From positions 1 to 16,992 of the forward strand of contig PMKB01000207.1 in assembly GCA_003157595.1 (NCBI GenBank): a stretch of DNA of 16,992 nucleotides, in the 5' to 3' direction. The stretch's first letter is position 1. Each line of letters starts with the position of its first letter. A program made the translations under genes and the position numbers. This document shows, in pieces, positions 9,546-16,992 of the stretch. A model generated the notes under the pieces. That model searched no databases, was not told where the DNA came from, and worked only from the letters and a program-made list of their open reading frames with translations. The DNA comes from Solirubrobacterales bacterium (GTDB lineage Bacteria; Actinomycetota; Thermoleophilia; Solirubrobacterales; Solirubrobacteraceae).

Positions 9546-9619
9546 GCGGATGTAGCTCAGTTGGCTAGAGCGTCTGCTTGCCATGCAGAAGGTCGAGGGT
9601 TCGAGTCCCTTCATCCGCT
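9546..9619 (+). tRNA. tRNA-Gly (anticodon GCC)
   Basis: Acceptor stem GCGGATG (9546-9552) pairs with CATCCGC (9612-9618), with discriminator T9619. Anticodon stem TCTGC (9573-9577) pairs with GCAGA (9585-9589); the loop TTGCCAT carries anticodon GCC at 9580-9582. The T arm GAGGG-TTCGAGT-CCCTT closes the fold. No CCA is encoded. It is followed at once by a terminator and then by mobile-element genes, so its 3' end is the likely attachment site. Confidence 0.96.
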
Positions 9620-9623
9620 TACA

Positions 9624-9657
9624 AGAAAGGCCCGCAAATGCGGGCCTTTCTCTTTTC
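9624..9657 (+). terminator. Intrinsic terminator of tRNA-Gly
   Basis: AGAAAGGCCCGC (9624-9635) pairs perfectly with GCGGGCCTTTCT (9640-9651) around an AAAT loop, a 12-bp stem followed by the T-rich CTTTTCT. This is a textbook Rho-independent terminator, with partial A-tract symmetry that may let it also work from the minus strand against the HTH gene. Confidence 0.88.
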
Positions 9658-9688: not shown

Positions 9689-9711
9689 TCGTCTACCACT
9701 TTCGTCTACCA
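9689..9711. repeat. Two 10-bp direct repeats, 13 bp apart, beside the tRNA
   Basis: TCGTCTACCA occurs at 9689-9698 and again at 9702-9711, about 70 nt from the tRNA 3' end, overlapping the last codons and stop of the HTH gene. Spacing and position fit binding sites for a recombination factor. Confidence 0.65.
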
Positions 9712-9971
9712 AACCCGGTATCCAGGCGTGCGTCGAAGGCCCTCCGCAGCCCGTCGAGGTAGCCGACGAGGTCGGCTTCGACGAAGCGGAGGTGGCGGCC
9801 GATCTTGACGCTGGGGACGATGCCGCGGCGGGAGTAGTCGCGCAGCGTCGACTCCTTGAGCGTCAGGAACTCGGCGGCTTCGGCGGAGGTCAGCAGCCGC
9901 GGGTTCGACTCGGCGGCGCCCCGAATGGCGGCCTCACTCGACTGGTCTACGTTGCGCGCTGGCAGGCTCAC
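9693..9971 (-). CDS. Excisionase-like HTH (MerR/HTH_17) DNA-binding protein
   Basis: With the GTG start at 9971 the product is 92 residues. Residues 26-74 form a winged HTH of the excisionase/BldC type: LLTSAEAAEFLTLKESTLRDY, then RRGIVPSVKIGRHLRF and the closing helix VEADLVGYLDGLR. The basic tail ends GFGRRKW. Such proteins act as recombination directionality factors or small regulators. It is the gene closest to the tRNA and reads toward it, ending 74 nt from the tRNA. The open frame extends to an ATG at 10085, but that would overlap the divergent gene and an AT-rich inverted repeat. The start is uncertain, as GTG 9971 lacks a clear ribosome binding site. No integrase gene accompanies it here. 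Confidence 0.75.
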   Translation of the reverse strand: MSLPARNVDQSSEAAIRGAAESNPRLLTSAEAAEFLTLKESTLRDYSRRGIVPSVKIGRHLRFVEADLVGYLDGLRRAFDARLDTGFGRRKW

Positions 9972-9980
9972 GGTAGGAAT

Positions 9981-10023
9981 AGACCAAACTAGCAAAATGA
10001 TGAGAGTTTGGCTACCCTGGTCT
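9981..10023. promoter_or_regulatory. AT-rich divergent control region with nested inverted repeats
   Basis: CCAAACT (9984-9990) and AGTTTGG (10005-10011) are perfect inverse copies with a 14-nt spacer. A second, offset pair is AGACCA (9981-9986) and TGGTCT (10018-10023). The stretch is AT-rich and lies between the HTH gene and the divergent gene at 10072, so it probably holds operators or promoters for both. Confidence 0.5.
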
Positions 10024-10071
10024 GATTCTGTGGCTTTCTCGAGATGAGCGGCGGCGACCGAGGTCGATGCG

Positions 10072-10536
10072 ATGATCCGCCCCATGGTCGACAGGGTCGA
10101 AAATGCGGCTCAGGAAGCTTTCCGTGGCGCTCAGCAGCTGTGGCGCGGTGCGCTTGAGGCGCACCGCTTGGCGCCGCCTGACGCTGGTTTCAGCGGCCGG
10201 TTGGCCCGGCTCGCGGATGCCGCGCGAGCGGAAGCTCTTGCGTGTCGCGCGGCGGACCTGGCGGGATTTGAGTGGCCGCCGCATCGGGTGTCGTCTAGTG
10301 CGCCGCCGTATGAGCTGCAGCCTGGCTCGGGTCGGCGTGGTCCGCAGGAGCTCTGGCGGCGGTTTGACGGTGCGGTGAGCGAGCTCAACCGTGCAGCGAC
10401 CGGGACTGACCTGGTCGCGGTCGCGGTGGCGTACGAGGAGTTGACTGAGGCGGCCGGCGAACTCGCGGTCGCGGTGGAGCGTGAGGACCGGGCCAGTGGG
10501 CTGCTACCGCGGGTGCGCGCTCGTCGCTCGGCGTGA
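10072..10536 (+). CDS. Hypothetical protein, small helical
   Basis: A 154-residue product, not recognised. It is rich in Ala, Arg and Glu, has no signal peptide or membrane segment, and looks mostly alpha-helical. An N-terminal helical part has several Trp and Arg residues (AQQLWRGALEAHRL); a Pro/Ser/Gly hinge at about 75-92 follows. The C-terminal helical half (about 95-145) contains the heptad-like DLVAVAVAYEELTEAAGELAVAVERE. ATG 10072 has GAGG (10060-10063) at 8 nt, better than ATG 10084. It is divergent from the excisionase-like gene and convergent with the SNF2 helicase gene, the only + strand gene in the element segment. A 3-base periodicity of GC and its bounded position support it being real. 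Confidence 0.6.
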   Translation: MIRPMVDRVENAAQEAFRGAQQLWRGALEAHRLAPPDAGFSGRLARLADAARAEALACRAADLAGFEWPPHRVSSSAPPYELQPGSGRRGPQELWRRFDGAVSELNRAATGTDLVAVAVAYEELTEAAGELAVAVEREDRASGLLPRVRARRSA

Positions 10537-10546
10537 CGGGTCACGC
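10531..10546 (+). terminator. Short hairpin overlapping the stop of the 10072 gene
   Basis: GCGTGAC (10531-10537) and GTCACGC (10540-10546) are perfect inverse copies spanning the TGA stop. As RNA this gives a 6-bp stem with a CGGG tetraloop. No T tract follows. The convergent gap 10537-10628 holds nothing else visible. Confidence 0.3.
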
Positions 10547-10628
10547 TGACGCTCTCGCGGTTGTAGCGATCGCGTCCAATCGCTCGGCCTTCGCCGACGC
10601 GGTTTGCCCGCTCGGGAAGACGGCGTGG

Positions 10629-13343
10629 TCAGGCTACGGCGCGCAGGTGACGGTAGGGCTCGCTGCGCAGCTCGGCGACGAGTGCGTCAATCAGGCCGGT
10701 GTCGTCCTCCGGGCGGCCGTCGGTGACGGCTGCGATCACGGCGCGTTTGCGCTCGAGGAGCGTCGCGATCGTCTCATCGATGGTGTCCGCGGCGAGCAGG
10801 TAGGTGGCGTTGACCGCGTTTGGCTGGCCGATGCGGTGGCAGCGGTCTTCGGCCTGGTCGTGCTTTGCTGGTGTCCAGTCGAGCTCGAGGAACGCGACGT
10901 TCGACGATCGGGTCATCGTGATGCCCTGGCCCGCGACCTCGAGCGAGCACACGATCAGCTGGTTTCGGTGGTCGTCGGGGGCCTGGAAGCCGCGTAGCGA
11001 ATCGTCGCGCGCCAGCTGGCTGTCGTCGCCGAGGATGTGCAGCGCGGCAGGAAAGCGCTCGAGCACGGCGTGCTGGATCTCGCGGTGGCGGGCGAATACG
11101 ACGAGCCGCTCGCCGGAGGAGAGGAAGTCGTGGATCCAGGCGAGCGCGGCGTGGAGCTTGCCGCGGGCGGCGAGCAGCTTCAGCGCGTTCAGCCGCACGA
11201 GTCTTTCGGCGCGCAGCGCTGCGGCCACCTTCGCATCGAGTTCGCGCAGGTCGAGCGGCTGGCTGCGAAGCCACGCGACAATGTCCTGTTCGGCGAGGCG
11301 ATATTCGGCCTCGTTGTCGAGTTCGACGGGCACGACCGCGCGCGTCTTCGGCGGCAGCTGAGGCAGGACGTCGACCTTGAGACGCCGCGCAAAGCAGCGT
11401 GCGCGAAGGTGCCAGTGCAGGCGGTGGTGGGCGTCGGGTCCGCGGAAGCGCTGGCCGAACTGCGCGCCCGAGCCGAAGTCGCCGAGCCGACCGAGGATCC
11501 GCAGCTGGGAGATCAGCTCCGGCGGGCGGTTCATCACCGGCGTACCGGTGAGGGCCAGGACGAGTCCGTCGGGCGGTACAGCCGCAGCGAGACGGTGCAC
11601 CGCCTGCGTGCGCTTGGCCCCCGGGTTCTTGCAGTAGTGGGATTCGTCGATCACCACGGCGCGGGGCGCGAGCGCCGTGAGCGTGTCGATCCGCGCAGCG
11701 ACGATGTCGTAGTTGACAACGGTGACGTCCGCCGGCGCCACGGCGCCGCGTGTGGCCGCCCCGTTGAGGACCTGGGTGCTGCGGTCGGGCAGCCACCGCT
11801 GCAGCTCGCGCAGCCAGTTGAGCTTCAGGCTCGCCGGGCAGACGACGATCGCGGGGTAGGCGTCATCGGCCTGCAGCGTCGCGATCGCCTCGATCGTCTT
11901 CCCCAGGCCCTGCTCGTCCGCGAGGAAGGCGCGCCGCTGGGCGAGGAGATAGCGCACTCCGGCGCGCTGGAACGGCTTCAGCTCGCCGCCGAGGCCGTGC
12001 ACCTCGAGGGCGCAATCGGTCGCCGCGGAGAGTGCCACGAGCCCCGCGGCGTGCGCGTGCTGCTCGCGGACCTCCTGCAGCGCCCCCAGCGCGTCGGGCG
12101 CCACCCAGGTGTTGCTGTCAGCGATGAAGCTGTCGAGCGCTGGGACGCAGAACGGATCGACGCGGATCGCGGGCAGGCGGGTGTGTTCGTGCTCACCAGC
12201 TTTGTCAGATTTGCCGGCCAGCACGCCGGGCAGTCCGGCGAACACCTCAAGCAGACGGGTGTCGTGCCCGGGGGCGAGAACGAACGACGGCTCGTCATGG
12301 ATTGCGGATAGCTCGAGCACCGCCGGCGGCGCCGGGTTGCCGGCGACGAGGGCGGCGACGCATCGCTTGGCGGCGTGGCTGATCCAGCCTCGTAGTGGCT
12401 GTGCGTCGATCAGCTGCCACGAATCGAGTGTGAGTGGCAGGCTCGCACCGTCGGGGACCGCGCGGGCGCGATCCTGCAGCGCCGAGGGGAGCCGCTCGGC
12501 TTTCCCGATGAGCACAAACACGGGAGCGTCAGCCGGCCCGTCGACTTCGATCGTGCCATGCCAGATGGTGGCGCGCTCCAGCCAAGCCTCGACACGCGGG
12601 TCGACCGCCGCAACGTCGAGTTGGGCAACGATCTCCGCTATGCGCACGCCATCGCGGTCGGCTGCCGCCAGCCCCACGCAGGAGCCGGGGCCCTCGAGCA
12701 CCTTCAGCCCAACCGCGTTCGCGAGCGCACGGGCGAGCGGCGCATGCTCAGCCGCAATCACAAGCCAGGCTGCGCCGCCGCGGCCGCGACGCAGCTCGAC
12801 ATCCCAAGCGAGCGCCTCCTCACGCGCTGCCGCGGGCTTCGGCTGCCCGACCTCCACAAGCGCGTGCAGCGCGTCGTCGGCGAGGCGAAGACGCGTGGTG
12901 TGATCGAGCAGGGCACGCACGAGATCCGCGGCTCGCGGATCCAGCGGGATCAGGGCACGGCCGATCGCCGGCAGGCTGTAGGCGTTCGGATGCTGCAGGA
13001 GCGCTGCGACGAGATCCGCGGCGTTGTCGGTCGCGAAGCTGAACCACCAGGAATCGTCGGCACGCGCGAGGCCGAGCACGCACTCGTCGGGCCGGCGCTT
13101 GGCACGACGGCGCTCGAGTGCTCGTCCGAGCGCCCCGCTGACCTCAACCGTGTAGGGGACGGTCGCGAACAATCGCGTGATCGCCTCGGCTCGGTCCGGG
13201 TCAAGCGGGACGCGCCACACCCGGTATTTAGCATCCCAACGTCGCCCGGGGATCGCCCGCAGCAGCAGGCGAAGACGCTCGTCAAAGGGGAACCGCAAAA
13301 CGGCGGCGCCCTCTTCGAGTGACGCGATGAACGTCGGCGACAT
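10629..13343 (-). CDS. SNF2-family helicase with HARP-like N-terminal domain (SMARCAL1-like)
   Basis: A 904-residue superfamily 2 translocase. The C-terminal motor has all motifs: FQRAGVRYLL (458-467), Walker A DEQGLGKT (476-483, K482), DESH (566-569), TGTP (599-602), and the second RecA-like domain with LVVFARHREI (747-756) and motif VI AEDRCHRIGQ (831-840). Residues 16-62 (RFPFDERLRLLLRAIPGRRW, DAKYRVWRVPL) resemble the HARP domain of SMARCAL1, which gives annealing-helicase activity. Residues 90-440 are a long region I do not recognise. The bacterial HepA/RapA group lacks HARP, so this is a distinct architecture. ATG 13343 has no ribosome binding site. The gene lies 77 nt after the HTH gene, probably in one operon with the relaxase. 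Roles in fork or ssDNA processing during transfer, or in defence, are inference. Confidence 0.88.
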   Translation of the reverse strand: MSPTFIASLEEGAAVLRFPFDERLRLLLRAIPGRRWDAKYRVWRVPLDPDRAEAITRLFATVPYTVEVSGALGRALERRRAKRRPDECVLGLARADDSWWFSFATDNAADLVAALLQHPNAYSLPAIGRALIPLDPRAADLVRALLDHTTRLRLADDALHALVEVGQPKPAAAREEALAWDVELRRGRGGAAWLVIAAEHAPLARALANAVGLKVLEGPGSCVGLAAADRDGVRIAEIVAQLDVAAVDPRVEAWLERATIWHGTIEVDGPADAPVFVLIGKAERLPSALQDRARAVPDGASLPLTLDSWQLIDAQPLRGWISHAAKRCVAALVAGNPAPPAVLELSAIHDEPSFVLAPGHDTRLLEVFAGLPGVLAGKSDKAGEHEHTRLPAIRVDPFCVPALDSFIADSNTWVAPDALGALQEVREQHAHAAGLVALSAATDCALEVHGLGGELKPFQRAGVRYLLAQRRAFLADEQGLGKTIEAIATLQADDAYPAIVVCPASLKLNWLRELQRWLPDRSTQVLNGAATRGAVAPADVTVVNYDIVAARIDTLTALAPRAVVIDESHYCKNPGAKRTQAVHRLAAAVPPDGLVLALTGTPVMNRPPELISQLRILGRLGDFGSGAQFGQRFRGPDAHHRLHWHLRARCFARRLKVDVLPQLPPKTRAVVPVELDNEAEYRLAEQDIVAWLRSQPLDLRELDAKVAAALRAERLVRLNALKLLAARGKLHAALAWIHDFLSSGERLVVFARHREIQHAVLERFPAALHILGDDSQLARDDSLRGFQAPDDHRNQLIVCSLEVAGQGITMTRSSNVAFLELDWTPAKHDQAEDRCHRIGQPNAVNATYLLAADTIDETIATLLERKRAVIAAVTDGRPEDDTGLIDALVAELRSEPYRHLRAVA

Positions 13344-13420
13344 GGACAGTGGACGATAGGCGGCACAACGGATGTGGCCGCGGCCCCTGGAGACAGCTGG
13401 CTGCGAGGTTGCCGGCTAGT

Positions 13421-13777
13421 TCATGCGGGTCTGCCCCGAGAGCCGGAATCGACCGGCGCTTGTCGCTCAGCGTCAGCCCTTTGGGGCGCAGCCAGGTTGC
13501 TGGTGTCGTCCCAGATCGAGCGGGGTTGGTCGGCGGTGTGGCGGTGTGGCAGGGTTGTGGTGGTTGGTTGCCAGAGGTCGCGGCGGGTGGCGATCGAGGT
13601 GCTGTCGGCGCTGGCACGTTCGAGTAGCGCTTCGACGTCTTGGCGTTTGACTCGGAACGCCCGGCCGATCCGCACCGCCGGGAGTGTCCCGTGGTCGATC
13701 CAGTTGCGGATCGTCTGCGCTGTGACCTGAAACTCGGCGGCGACCTGCGGGACCGTGAGCAGCTTTGGCTCGCTCAT
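13421..13777 (-). CDS. HTH (excisionase/HTH_17 type) DNA-binding protein coupled to the relaxase
   Basis: A 118-residue product. Residues 6-53 form a winged HTH: LLTVPQVAAEFQVTAQTIRNW, then HGTLPAVRIGRAFRV and the helix KRQDVEALLERA. The C-terminal half (54-118) is polar, rich in Ser, Thr, Arg and Pro, and appears disordered. The ATG follows the relaxase stop by one base (TGAAATG), so translation is almost certainly coupled. It probably regulates element genes or acts at an origin of transfer or attachment site. It is a paralogue-like relative of the HTH protein at 9693, with similar domain layout but clearly different sequence. Confidence 0.85.
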   Translation of the reverse strand: MSEPKLLTVPQVAAEFQVTAQTIRNWIDHGTLPAVRIGRAFRVKRQDVEALLERASADSTSIATRRDLWQPTTTTLPHRHTADQPRSIWDDTSNLAAPQRADAERQAPVDSGSRGRPA

Positions 13778-13778
13778 T

Positions 13779-16700
13779 TCAGAACTCGATGTCGAGGCCG
13801 TGGCCGCGGTCGTGGGTGTGTTCGCGGCCGAGGCGCCGCTCGGCCCGTTCTACCGCTTCATGGGCGCGATGCCACCGGCCGGCCTGGTGGTAGTCGCGCG
13901 GCTCGGGGCCGAGCGCGTCCGCCTGGTCGGTGATCTCGTATTCGATCCGGTAGCGCGCGACGCGGCGCACGGCGGTGTCCCAGTCGTCGCTGCGCGAGCC
14001 GGCGGGTCGTTCGCCGAGCAGCGTCTTGGCCCACTCCCCGGGTGCTTGGAGCTCACGGTCGCTGAGCTCGTTGAGTAGCCCGTCGCGCTCCTTGGTGAGC
14101 CGGTGGAGCTCGCGGTCGAGGCCGTCGAGCTCGGAGCGGATCTGCTCCGGGTTGCCGAGCTGCTCACGCAGCCGGACTTCGGCTTCGCGGGCGCGAACGA
14201 GCGCGTCGTCTGTGGCGTCGAGCGCGGAGGAGAGCCGCACCCGGTCGATGATGTGCTCGTCGCGGTCGCGGCCGAGCAGGCTGCGCTTCGGCGCCGGCAA
14301 GCGCTCCAAACTCGCGGACAACTCGCTACGGTCCGCCGTCAACTCCAGCGCCCGGGCGTGAGCGGTGTCGAGTTGGTTCAGCTGGGAGCTCGGGAGCGCG
14401 CCGCGTTGGACAGTGAGCTGCTCGAGGCGTTCCCGGAGCTCGCGCAACCGCGACGTACCCACCGGTGGTGTCTCGGGTTGCGCGCGCAATGCGGCGTGCT
14501 CCTGCAGCGGTTCGCCGGCGTGGTCGAGGGCGAGTGTGAGCTGGCGGTCATCCGCGCGACCGGCCGGGGCGAGTTGTTCGATGGCGAGGTCTTGGTCGTC
14601 GCGCTCGAGCATCCGCCGCCCCGCACGCGCAAGCAGCTCCTCACGGCACGCCGGTTGGTGCGTCCGTTCGGGTGCGTGATCGGCACGCTCGCGCTCGGGC
14701 TGGTCGTCGTGGATCAGCAGCCGCGTGGATGCGCGAGCGCGGGACAGCGCGGTGTAGCTCCAACCCGCCGTGAGATGGCTCGGTGTGGCGACGACGATCG
14801 CAGCCTCGACGGTCGCGCCCTGCATCCCATGGCCGGTCAGCGCGTAGGCGTGCTCGACGTGCTCAGCAACGTACTGGGCTGGCAGCTCTCTGATCAATCG
14901 GCTGTCGGTCTCGATCACGACACGATGCTCGTCGAGATGGCGGACGGTCCCGCGCGTCCCGTTATCGACATCGAGCAGGCTGTCGTTGCGCCGGCAGATC
15001 ACCCGGTCACCGACCGCCAACTCCCGGCGACCGTATACGCGCTGTTCGCCGAGCTCTCCCTGGTCGCGCCGCAGTGTGCGTGCGGCCTGGTTGAGCGCCT
15101 GTCGGGTGTCGTTGTCGCGGGCGATCATCACCGCCTGCTCAACCCCGACCTCGCCAACCACGGCGGCCCACTCGACGACCGCCCACTCACGCGCGCCGAC
15201 GGGGTCGTCGAAGGTGTCGATCCGTCCCGCCCTTGCTGCCCAGTCGAGGTAGCGGTCTGGGATCAGGTCGTGGAGCGCTGCGAGTGCCCTGCGTTCGGCG
15301 GGGTCGCGTTGGCGCATCACCTCGGTCAACCGCAACGCCCCGAGCTCACGCCCGACCGCGCGCAGCCACCCGCCCGCCCGGACCGAGGCGAGCTGGCCCG
15401 GGTCACCGATCGCGACAATCTTTGCCCCCGCCCGTTCGGCCGCCTCGAGGAGTCTCGCGGTCGTGCGGGTCGCGGCCATGCCGGCTTCGTCGAACACGAC
15501 CACGCACCGCTTCGGGAGAGTGTCGCCGAGCTGGTCGAGGTCGATCAGCAGCCGGTCAAGCGTCCGCGAGGGGATACCGGCTTGGTCGGTCAGCTCGCGC
15601 GCCGCACGGCCAGTCGGCGCGACACCCAACACCTCATAGCCGGCGTGTTCGTAGAGCTCACGCAGGACGCCGGCGGTGTAGGTCTTGCCGGTCCCCGCGA
15701 GCGCCTCAACAACCTCCACCCCGCGCCCGCGCGCGGCGACCTCACTCACGACCGCCGTCTGGTCCGCGGTCAACGGGCGGGCCGTCCTGGCGATCACCCG
15801 ATCAACGGCGCGCGTGTCGAGAATCCCGACGCCCTCCCCGGCGCGGCCGACCGCTGCGGCGATCAGCCGCCGCTCACACGCGACCAGGTCCGCGGTCGTG
15901 AACTCGCCGAGCTCGGTAGCCAGCACGTCCGCACGCCGGGTGAACCGCTCGGCCTGCGCGCGGATCTCATCAACCGTGGCGCCCTGCCCGGCCGCGGCGG
16001 CGAACTCCTGCAACACGACCCGCTCATCGAAGCTGTTCGCGCGCTCCGTCAGCCCGTGCGGACCCGCGAGCCGCTCACCGAGTGTCAGCTCGTCTGAGAC
16101 GTCGTGCTCGGCCAATCCGTGCGCGAGACGTTCGCGGCCTCGCTCGAACAGTTCGGTGATCTCCTCGCGGCCGAACCCGAGCTCGCTCGCGCGGGCTTGG
16201 ATCTCTTCTCGCCAGGTTCCCGTGTCGATCCCGTACTCCTTGCGCTCACGCGTAGCGAGCGCCGCCGCCTCACCGCCCGCCTTCGTGTCGAGGCTGATGC
16301 CGCCAAGCTCCGCAGCGCGCAGCATCTCCTGACGACGCTTCGAAAACTCAACGAGGATCTCCGCCGGGACAGCGGCCAGCTCGGCGGCGCCCTTGCGGAC
16401 CTCCCCCCACTCCAGACCGAGGCGCTCGCTGATCGTGGCGCGCAGCTGCGATTGGTAGAGATAGCCCGCGGTCTTCGCCGCCCGATAGAGCGGCGCGCCA
16501 TGCAGCGCCGTGAACCGCCCGTCCGGGCCGCGCGTCAGATTCGCCGCGACCACATGCGTGTGCAGCTGCGGATCGAGCGAGCGGCTCATCCGGTGCAGGT
16601 AGGCCGCCGCGATCAACCCCTCCCCCGCCTGCACCGTCGTACCGTCATGGCCGCGACGCACCATCACCGCGCTGTCGTCGAGGTAGGCCAGCGCGGCGGT

Positions 16701-16992
16701 CACCGCGGCGTTGTGCGCGTCGACCAGCACACGCGTCAGATCGTTGGAGCCGGCGGCGGCGAGGACGCTGACCGACTTCGGCGCCGAGAACGTCAGATCA
16801 AGCGCCGCGACCTCCGGATCACGCACCGACCACCGCAAACGGACGGACGGGTCGCGCGGATCCAACCCCGCCACCAGCGCGTTGAACTGCCCGTCCGACA
16901 CCCCGCCCGACAGACCCAGAGTCTGGGCGCCGGCGCCCTGCCACTGCCCCGGCACCTCCCCCCGGCCCGTGTAGTAGTCGTCGGCGCCCTGC
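13779..16992 (-). CDS. MobF-family conjugative relaxase-helicase (TrwC/TraI type), 5' end beyond window
   Basis: Partial: 1070 residues are visible and the frame is open to the edge. Just before the GTG at 16955 the frame reads ADDYYTGRGE, equivalent to the second tyrosine pair of TrwC, so the true start and first catalytic Tyr lie outside. Counting from that GTG codon as 1: TrwC-relaxase DLTFSAPKSVS (53-63) and the metal-binding His triad H121, H132, H134 in DPQLHTH; then a RecD/TraI-type helicase with Walker A ALAGTGKT (418-425), Walker B VVFDEAGM (486-493), GDPGQL (517-522) and the late motif LTGHGMQGATVEAA to YTALSRARA (706-742). The region 835-970 is coiled coil, with a charged C-terminus. 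It would nick oriT, stay covalently bound to the strand and unwind it for transfer. It heads the HTH and SNF2 genes. Confidence 0.95.
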   Translation of the reverse strand, partial: QGADDYYTGRGEVPGQWQGAGAQTLGLSGGVSDGQFNALVAGLDPRDPSVRLRWSVRDPEVAALDLTFSAPKSVSVLAAAGSNDLTRVLVDAHNAAVTAALAYLDDSAVMVRRGHDGTTVQAGEGLIAAAYLHRMSRSLDPQLHTHVVAANLTRGPDGRFTALHGAPLYRAAKTAGYLYQSQLRATISERLGLEWGEVRKGAAELAAVPAEILVEFSKRRQEMLRAAELGGISLDTKAGGEAAALATRERKEYGIDTGTWREEIQARASELGFGREEITELFERGRERLAHGLAEHDVSDELTLGERLAGPHGLTERANSFDERVVLQEFAAAAGQGATVDEIRAQAERFTRRADVLATELGEFTTADLVACERRLIAAAVGRAGEGVGILDTRAVDRVIARTARPLTADQTAVVSEVAARGRGVEVVEALAGTGKTYTAGVLRELYEHAGYEVLGVAPTGRAARELTDQAGIPSRTLDRLLIDLDQLGDTLPKRCVVVFDEAGMAATRTTARLLEAAERAGAKIVAIGDPGQLASVRAGGWLRAVGRELGALRLTEVMRQRDPAERRALAALHDLIPDRYLDWAARAGRIDTFDDPVGAREWAVVEWAAVVGEVGVEQAVMIARDNDTRQALNQAARTLRRDQGELGEQRVYGRRELAVGDRVICRRNDSLLDVDNGTRGTVRHLDEHRVVIETDSRLIRELPAQYVAEHVEHAYALTGHGMQGATVEAAIVVATPSHLTAGWSYTALSRARASTRLLIHDDQPERERADHAPERTHQPACREELLARAGRRMLERDDQDLAIEQLAPAGRADDRQLTLALDHAGEPLQEHAALRAQPETPPVGTSRLRELRERLEQLTVQRGALPSSQLNQLDTAHARALELTADRSELSASLERLPAPKRSLLGRDRDEHIIDRVRLSSALDATDDALVRAREAEVRLREQLGNPEQIRSELDGLDRELHRLTKERDGLLNELSDRELQAPGEWAKTLLGERPAGSRSDDWDTAVRRVARYRIEYEITDQADALGPEPRDYHQAGRWHRAHEAVERAERRLGREHTHDRGHGLDIEF

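Follow-up and report, generated by a model that had tools for sequence, protein, structure and literature searches.

A HARP-SNF2 protein with a predicted five-unit HARP-like array, encoded near a MobF relaxase in a Solirubrobacterales bacterium

The HARP domain of SMARCAL1 has been reported to confer annealing activity, and in animals one or two such domains directly adjoin the motor (PMC4035279); PMC4666394 presents HARP as a sheet of five strands on two helices, and T4 UvsW as having one N-terminal HARP domain. A gene for a HARP-SNF2 protein lies at 10629..13343 on the minus strand of a 16,992-nucleotide stretch of DNA (the window; contig PMKB01000207.1 of assembly GCA_003157595.1) from a Solirubrobacterales bacterium. 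The kind of protein is known; the interest of this variant lies in its predicted array of five HARP-like units. Like SMARCAL1, the window protein has an SNF2 motor and an N-terminal HARP-type domain, and many JGI homologue records are named 'SWI/SNF-related ... subfamily A-like'. Unlike in SMARCAL1, five HARP-like units are predicted, and the recognisable one, with its core at residues 16-62, does not adjoin the motor, which begins at about residue 450; some 390 residues with diverged units lie between. Spacing and unit number are unlike those of SMARCAL1, and the protein is therefore proposed to work like SMARCAL1 and is not classed as SMARCAL1. T4 UvsW and XPB/Ssl2 resemble it as superfamily 2 motors with recognition domains, and chains of TFIIH are among its weak Foldseek matches, but they belong to other motor subfamilies and have no five-unit array. 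Proteins of the UvsW/XPB type have single domains of this sort or a pair.

The gene is intact and encodes 904 residues, and the SNF2-type ATPase motor that characterises SMARCAL1-type HARP-SNF2 proteins is complete (10716..11996, minus strand, residues ~450-876), so that the initial annotation, made from the letters alone, was right about both the gene and its motor. Its placing of a HARP domain at residues 16-62 also holds, as remote homology. HARP is absent from the results of a plain Pfam scan of the window protein, and in the genome search PF07443 scores 12.2 bits on it, below the Pfam gathering cut-off of 25. Among 146 genomes of the same bacterial family, however, PF07443 matches at an expectation value (E) <=1 in 101, to judge by coordinates mostly at the orthologue N-terminus, and once above the cut-off, whereas the same threshold gave matches in 3 of 14 control genomes and none above the cut-off. 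PF07443 is matched at E<=1 by all 24 aligned N-termini of a shorter form of the protein, with a best value of 2.9e-5, whereas any other family is matched by at most two of these 24. Two profiles were built, A3 from these 24 N-termini, picked from 28 short forms, and A4 from ten rows of the long form to which the window protein belongs. The SMARCAL1 HARP domain (4o66) ranks first among 177,635 PDB sequences for both, with E 0.027 for A3 and 0.56 for A4. Aligned to each other, A3 and A4 give E 4.8e-12, a single-comparison value, and a stand-alone HARP protein used as query retrieves the window N-terminus at E 4.7e-6. By these profile comparisons, HARP homology N-terminal to the motor holds at family level as remote homology.

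The N-terminal half as a whole is best explained, on the strength of structure prediction, as a series of five related HARP-like domains for DNA recognition, all encoded on the minus strand. Unit 1 (13092..13340, residues 2-84; AlphaFold2 boundaries 4-81) keeps the HARP sequence signature, with its core at about 16-62. Unit 2 (12828..13088, residues 86-172; AlphaFold2 88-165) is HARP-like by predicted fold and has a profile relation to unit 4, and unit 3 (12564..12806, residues 180-260; AlphaFold2 182-259) is a degenerate HARP unit that aligns from end to end with the HARP profile of the short form at E ~5e-5. Unit 4 (12330..12566, residues 260-338; AlphaFold2 262-333) is HARP-like by predicted fold only; unit 5 (12024..12329, residues 339-440; AlphaFold2 341-440) is also HARP-like by predicted fold, has a loop insertion and abuts the motor. 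The mean predicted local distance difference test score of AlphaFold2 is 84.6 for the whole protein and 93.0 for residues 84-445 alone, with the same element order in both models, and the order predicted for units 2-5 fits a five-stranded sheet with two helices, the strands being very short in units 3 and 5. HARP-like units are thus predicted in the roughly 350 residues between HARP and motor that had been called unrecognised. Foldseek-type fold searches of the array gave weak matches, 4o66 not among them. For residues 84-445 the two best are TFIIH chains, which we take to be yeast Ssl2/XPB, at E 0.012 and 0.022 and with TM-scores (template modelling scores) of 0.18 that do not establish a shared fold; the ZorD structure 8qy7 is another weak match.

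Comparison with the short form suggests how the array was lengthened. Short-form orthologues (~730 residues, for instance L080 and L038) share the motor and the C-terminal part of the N-terminal region, at ~50-59% identity over the aligned parts, but have one module fewer, with three units by alignment against five, and an intact HARP where the window protein has unit 3. Their N-terminus aligns to window residues 181-445 (E 4.5e-25) and also to residues 11-183 (E 1.2e-11). Judged by these alignments, the long form is the short form with its N-terminal module duplicated.

Taken as a whole, the window protein is probably a SMARCAL1-like junction remodeller with a five-unit HARP-like array that was captured as cargo in a MobF-bearing element. 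The HARP homology of unit 1 makes junction DNA a likely target. By analogy, the array, with the signature intact in unit 1 and units 2-5 diverged, would recognise junctions of single- and double-stranded DNA or forks and feed them to the SNF2 motor as a double-strand-DNA translocase, which may rewind strands or migrate branches, resulting in annealing or fork regression. This copy appears to have been inserted between two conserved genes of the MobF-bearing element, which lies on the side of tRNA-Gly, on the same strand as the helix-turn-helix (HTH) and MobF genes and behind them, with which it may be co-transcribed. For the element, the benefit might be a repair gene for hosts without one, or the gene may be a mere passenger.

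Orthologues of the SNF2 gene are found in 108 of the 146 family genomes at E<=1e-50 (56 of 71 of good quality), at 117 places that include pieces of one gene, 100 genomes listing one place; in the order as a whole, 122 of 232 genomes match at E<=1e-60. Where the matches include named complete chromosomes (Conexibacter S30A1, Conexibacter DBS9H8 and Svornostia abyssi), the location is chromosomal. A tree of 86 rows places the window protein inside the long-form clade, together with the metagenome proteins P0002-P0008, and another member of this clade, P0105, lies on a 5.1-Mb contig. The window copy is the only SNF2 of its family found in its own genome (G000), and the three other genomes of the genus (G086, G087 and G088; 91, 86 and 93% complete) are without the gene. 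Genome G207 has, besides its short form, a diverged second long-form copy (L276:8245-10923, minus strand), whose neighbour at L276:7460-8149 (minus strand) has a nuclease-like PADLOC match, C3a212, at E 1.1e-22. Four records titled as Bifidobacterium breve metagenome-assembled genomes (L022, L027, L028 and L050) carry a Solirubrobacterales-type orthologue, and their titles look wrong. A viral family was rejected, the 40 viral contig loci found having at most 46% identity and mostly motor matches. A plasmid or phage family was rejected as well: the matching records number 602 from plasmids and 789 from phages, and in none of them is 80% of the query covered. Nor is there a conserved functional neighbour, the most widespread neighbour cluster occurring in 10 of 57 loci. 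Foreign base composition was likewise rejected, with 70.3% GC in the SNF2 gene and 70.7% on the chromosome side.

The setting of the gene in a relaxase-bearing mobile element is borne out, in what looks like one. The MobF (TrwC-type) relaxase-helicase gene (13779..16991, minus strand) is recognised by NF041492 (222.6 bits, cut-off 100) and PF08751 (237.6 bits, cut-off 25); the window contig ends inside it, its start lying beyond the contig end. A gene for a 118-residue HTH_17 protein, excisionase/BldC-like (13421..13777, minus strand), stands between MobF and SNF2. Convergent to these three genes is ORF154 (10072..10536, plus strand), an undescribed element gene used here as a marker, for which Pfam, NCBIfam, PHROGs and PADLOC gave no match. 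At the tRNA end of the element lie a second HTH_17 (excisionase-like) gene (9693..10085, minus strand) and tRNA-Gly(gcc) (9546..9619, plus strand), the proposed attachment site, which is followed by a terminator-like stretch at 9624-9651.

Contig C322 of the same genome holds a sibling with ORF154, HTH (94.7% amino acid identity) and MobF (93.4%) and no SNF2. The nucleotide alignment of the two takes in 10108-10518 and 13493-16845; the intervening 2,974 bp (10519..13492), which carry the SNF2 gene and the last 24 HTH codons, stop counted, correspond to 48 bp in C322. ORF154 has 67 matches in 31 of the 146 family genomes. Of these loci 52 were read, and 14 have a convergent ORF154/HTH pair; in 13 of them the HTH follows the end of the ORF154 match by 10-427 bp without SNF2, one holding an open reading frame of 83 residues, against 2,888 bp in the window. 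None of the other 51 ORF154 loci shows an SNF2-profile gene nearby, those without a convergent pair differing in layout or ending too soon. The G000 bin is 73% complete and has six ORF154 matches (contigs C321, C322, C348, C244, C135 and C307), three of these contigs having a tRNA gene near (Gly, Ala and Phe); by these matches the genome appears to hold many related integrated elements. On contig C264 of the same genome (L187, 1269-1330), a tRNA-Gly 3' half with two N inside adjoins an integrase-cluster gene and may mark the far attachment site of the element in the window.

The conserved module of relaxase, HTH and HARP-SNF2 proposed in the initial annotation is not borne out. The orthologues are mostly unlinked to relaxases, an outcome that the initial annotation had itself named as refuting its reading. 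MobF matches occur in 58 of the 146 family genomes. When the two genome-wide listings were compared by eye, one of the 117 SNF2 places, the window itself, lay within 10 kb of a MobF (TrwC) match. In G109 the distance is 12 kb, with a tRNA-His between, and in G018 it is 16 kb, to a fragment. Among 58 loci searched by tblastn at E<=1e-5, only the window (L001) has the window's MobF, HTH, second HTH or ORF154; in the flanks of the 57 other GTDB loci, up to 8 kb and often shorter where the contig ends, no match to the window MobF was found, although very distant MobFs could escape. Eight long-form loci with wider flanks (L276, L278, L279 and L281-L285) gave no profile match to MobF, integrase, HTH or ORF154. 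The module was rejected, the linkage being found only in the window, and the relaxase linkage is a single insertion as far as surveyed.

HARP units also occur without a motor. The HARP search brought up proteins of ~230-310 residues with two HARP units, at L286:6530-7264 (plus), L287:6924-7625 (plus), L289:7873-8577 (plus) and L290:6878-7804 (minus). The first has 128 homologues at E<=0.001, the named ones among the 120 listed being hypothetical; alignments relate its two halves to one another (E 4e-7) and to the profile of unit 1 (E 5e-9). PF07443 matches 36 of 38 aligned homologues at E<=0.1 (best 7.4e-7), and DUF2795 also matches 27 (best 2.7e-4). With this protein as query, 29 places in 28 of the 146 genomes were sorted by eye against the SNF2 listing into five HARP-only genes, 23 SNF2 N-termini, window included, and one contig fragment. 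The double-HARP gene of G014 is flanked on one side by genes for a TrwB-like coupling protein and a TraG-P-loop (VirB4-like) ATPase and on the other by a tyrosine integrase gene. Its counterpart in G141 adjoins a coupling protein, with a second TraG-P-loop ATPase further on that scores below its cut-off, and in G016 an integrase is near. Judging from these neighbours, the stand-alone double-HARP proteins are encoded within conjugative-type elements in this bacterial family. An AbiEii gene is present in the G014 element (L286:8348-9259, minus strand), and an MmeI-type restriction-modification gene lies near that of G141 (L321:11825-14533, minus strand). A broader view can be offered only tentatively: HARP domains may form a mobile toolkit in Solirubrobacterales, in which expanded five-unit arrays drive an SNF2 junction remodeller, stand-alone double-HARPs of conjugative-type elements act as transfer-linked strand-annealing or junction-binding factors, and the motor version was, in the window, captured into a relaxase element.

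Three other explanations of the window protein deserve weighing. The initial annotation saw in it a part of the relaxase module that shields transferred single-stranded DNA, anneals it or converts it. Its place on the same strand in tight spacing behind MobF and HTH, as the only SNF2 copy found in this genome, speaks for such a role, and the double-HARP proteins of conjugative-type elements suggest that HARP-type binding may serve elements; but the sibling on C322, with MobF 93% and HTH 95% identical, does without SNF2, as do 13 of the 14 elements with the ORF154/HTH pair, and no TrwC match lies within 10 kb of any of the other 116 SNF2 places, which leaves this reading improbable.

It is about equally unlikely that the gene is anti-phage or anti-element defence cargo with a motor like that of ZorD, DrmD or DpdE. 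The motor is of a related SNF2 type and matches the PADLOC profiles of all three (best 1.2e-42), the gene is cargo in an element, and the weak fold matches include 8qy7. However, these matches cover the motor, and the curated NCBIfam cut-offs are far from reached (ZorD 69.5 against 1500, DpdE 46.7 against 500, DrmD 45.4 against 950 and 41.9 against 610). PADLOC found no partner gene of the Zorya, DISARM or Dpd systems in the other four element-side proteins scanned, a PADLOC scan of eight genes close to long-form orthologues produced a single hit, on a nuclease-like model, and about three quarters of the family genomes have the gene. As a third possibility, the protein could be a generic bacterial SNF2 ATPase or one related to transcription, of the SCO1167/SCO6262 or RapA-like kind, with N-terminal units that bind something other than forked DNA. 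This would agree with the best NCBIfam match, the SCO1167/SCO6262 helicase family; that match is limited to residues 412-892 and, at 148 bits, stays below its cut-off of 1200, RapA matches weakly (33.5 bits, cut-off 576), and the HARP homology of unit 1 suggests junction DNA, so that this explanation, too, has a small probability.

A SMARCAL1-like junction remodeller thus remains the preferred reading of the window protein. The orthologue family most likely serves its hosts in general at replication forks or in repair, because it is a usual, mostly single-copy gene of Solirubrobacterales, a group of soil bacteria, and is chromosomal wherever its location is visible. A bacterial family with three or five predicted HARP-like units would offer a natural series on how fork remodelling depends on the number of recognition domains and on their spacing, and the element copy, together with the stand-alone double-HARP proteins, would make the use of HARP-type binding by conjugative elements testable.
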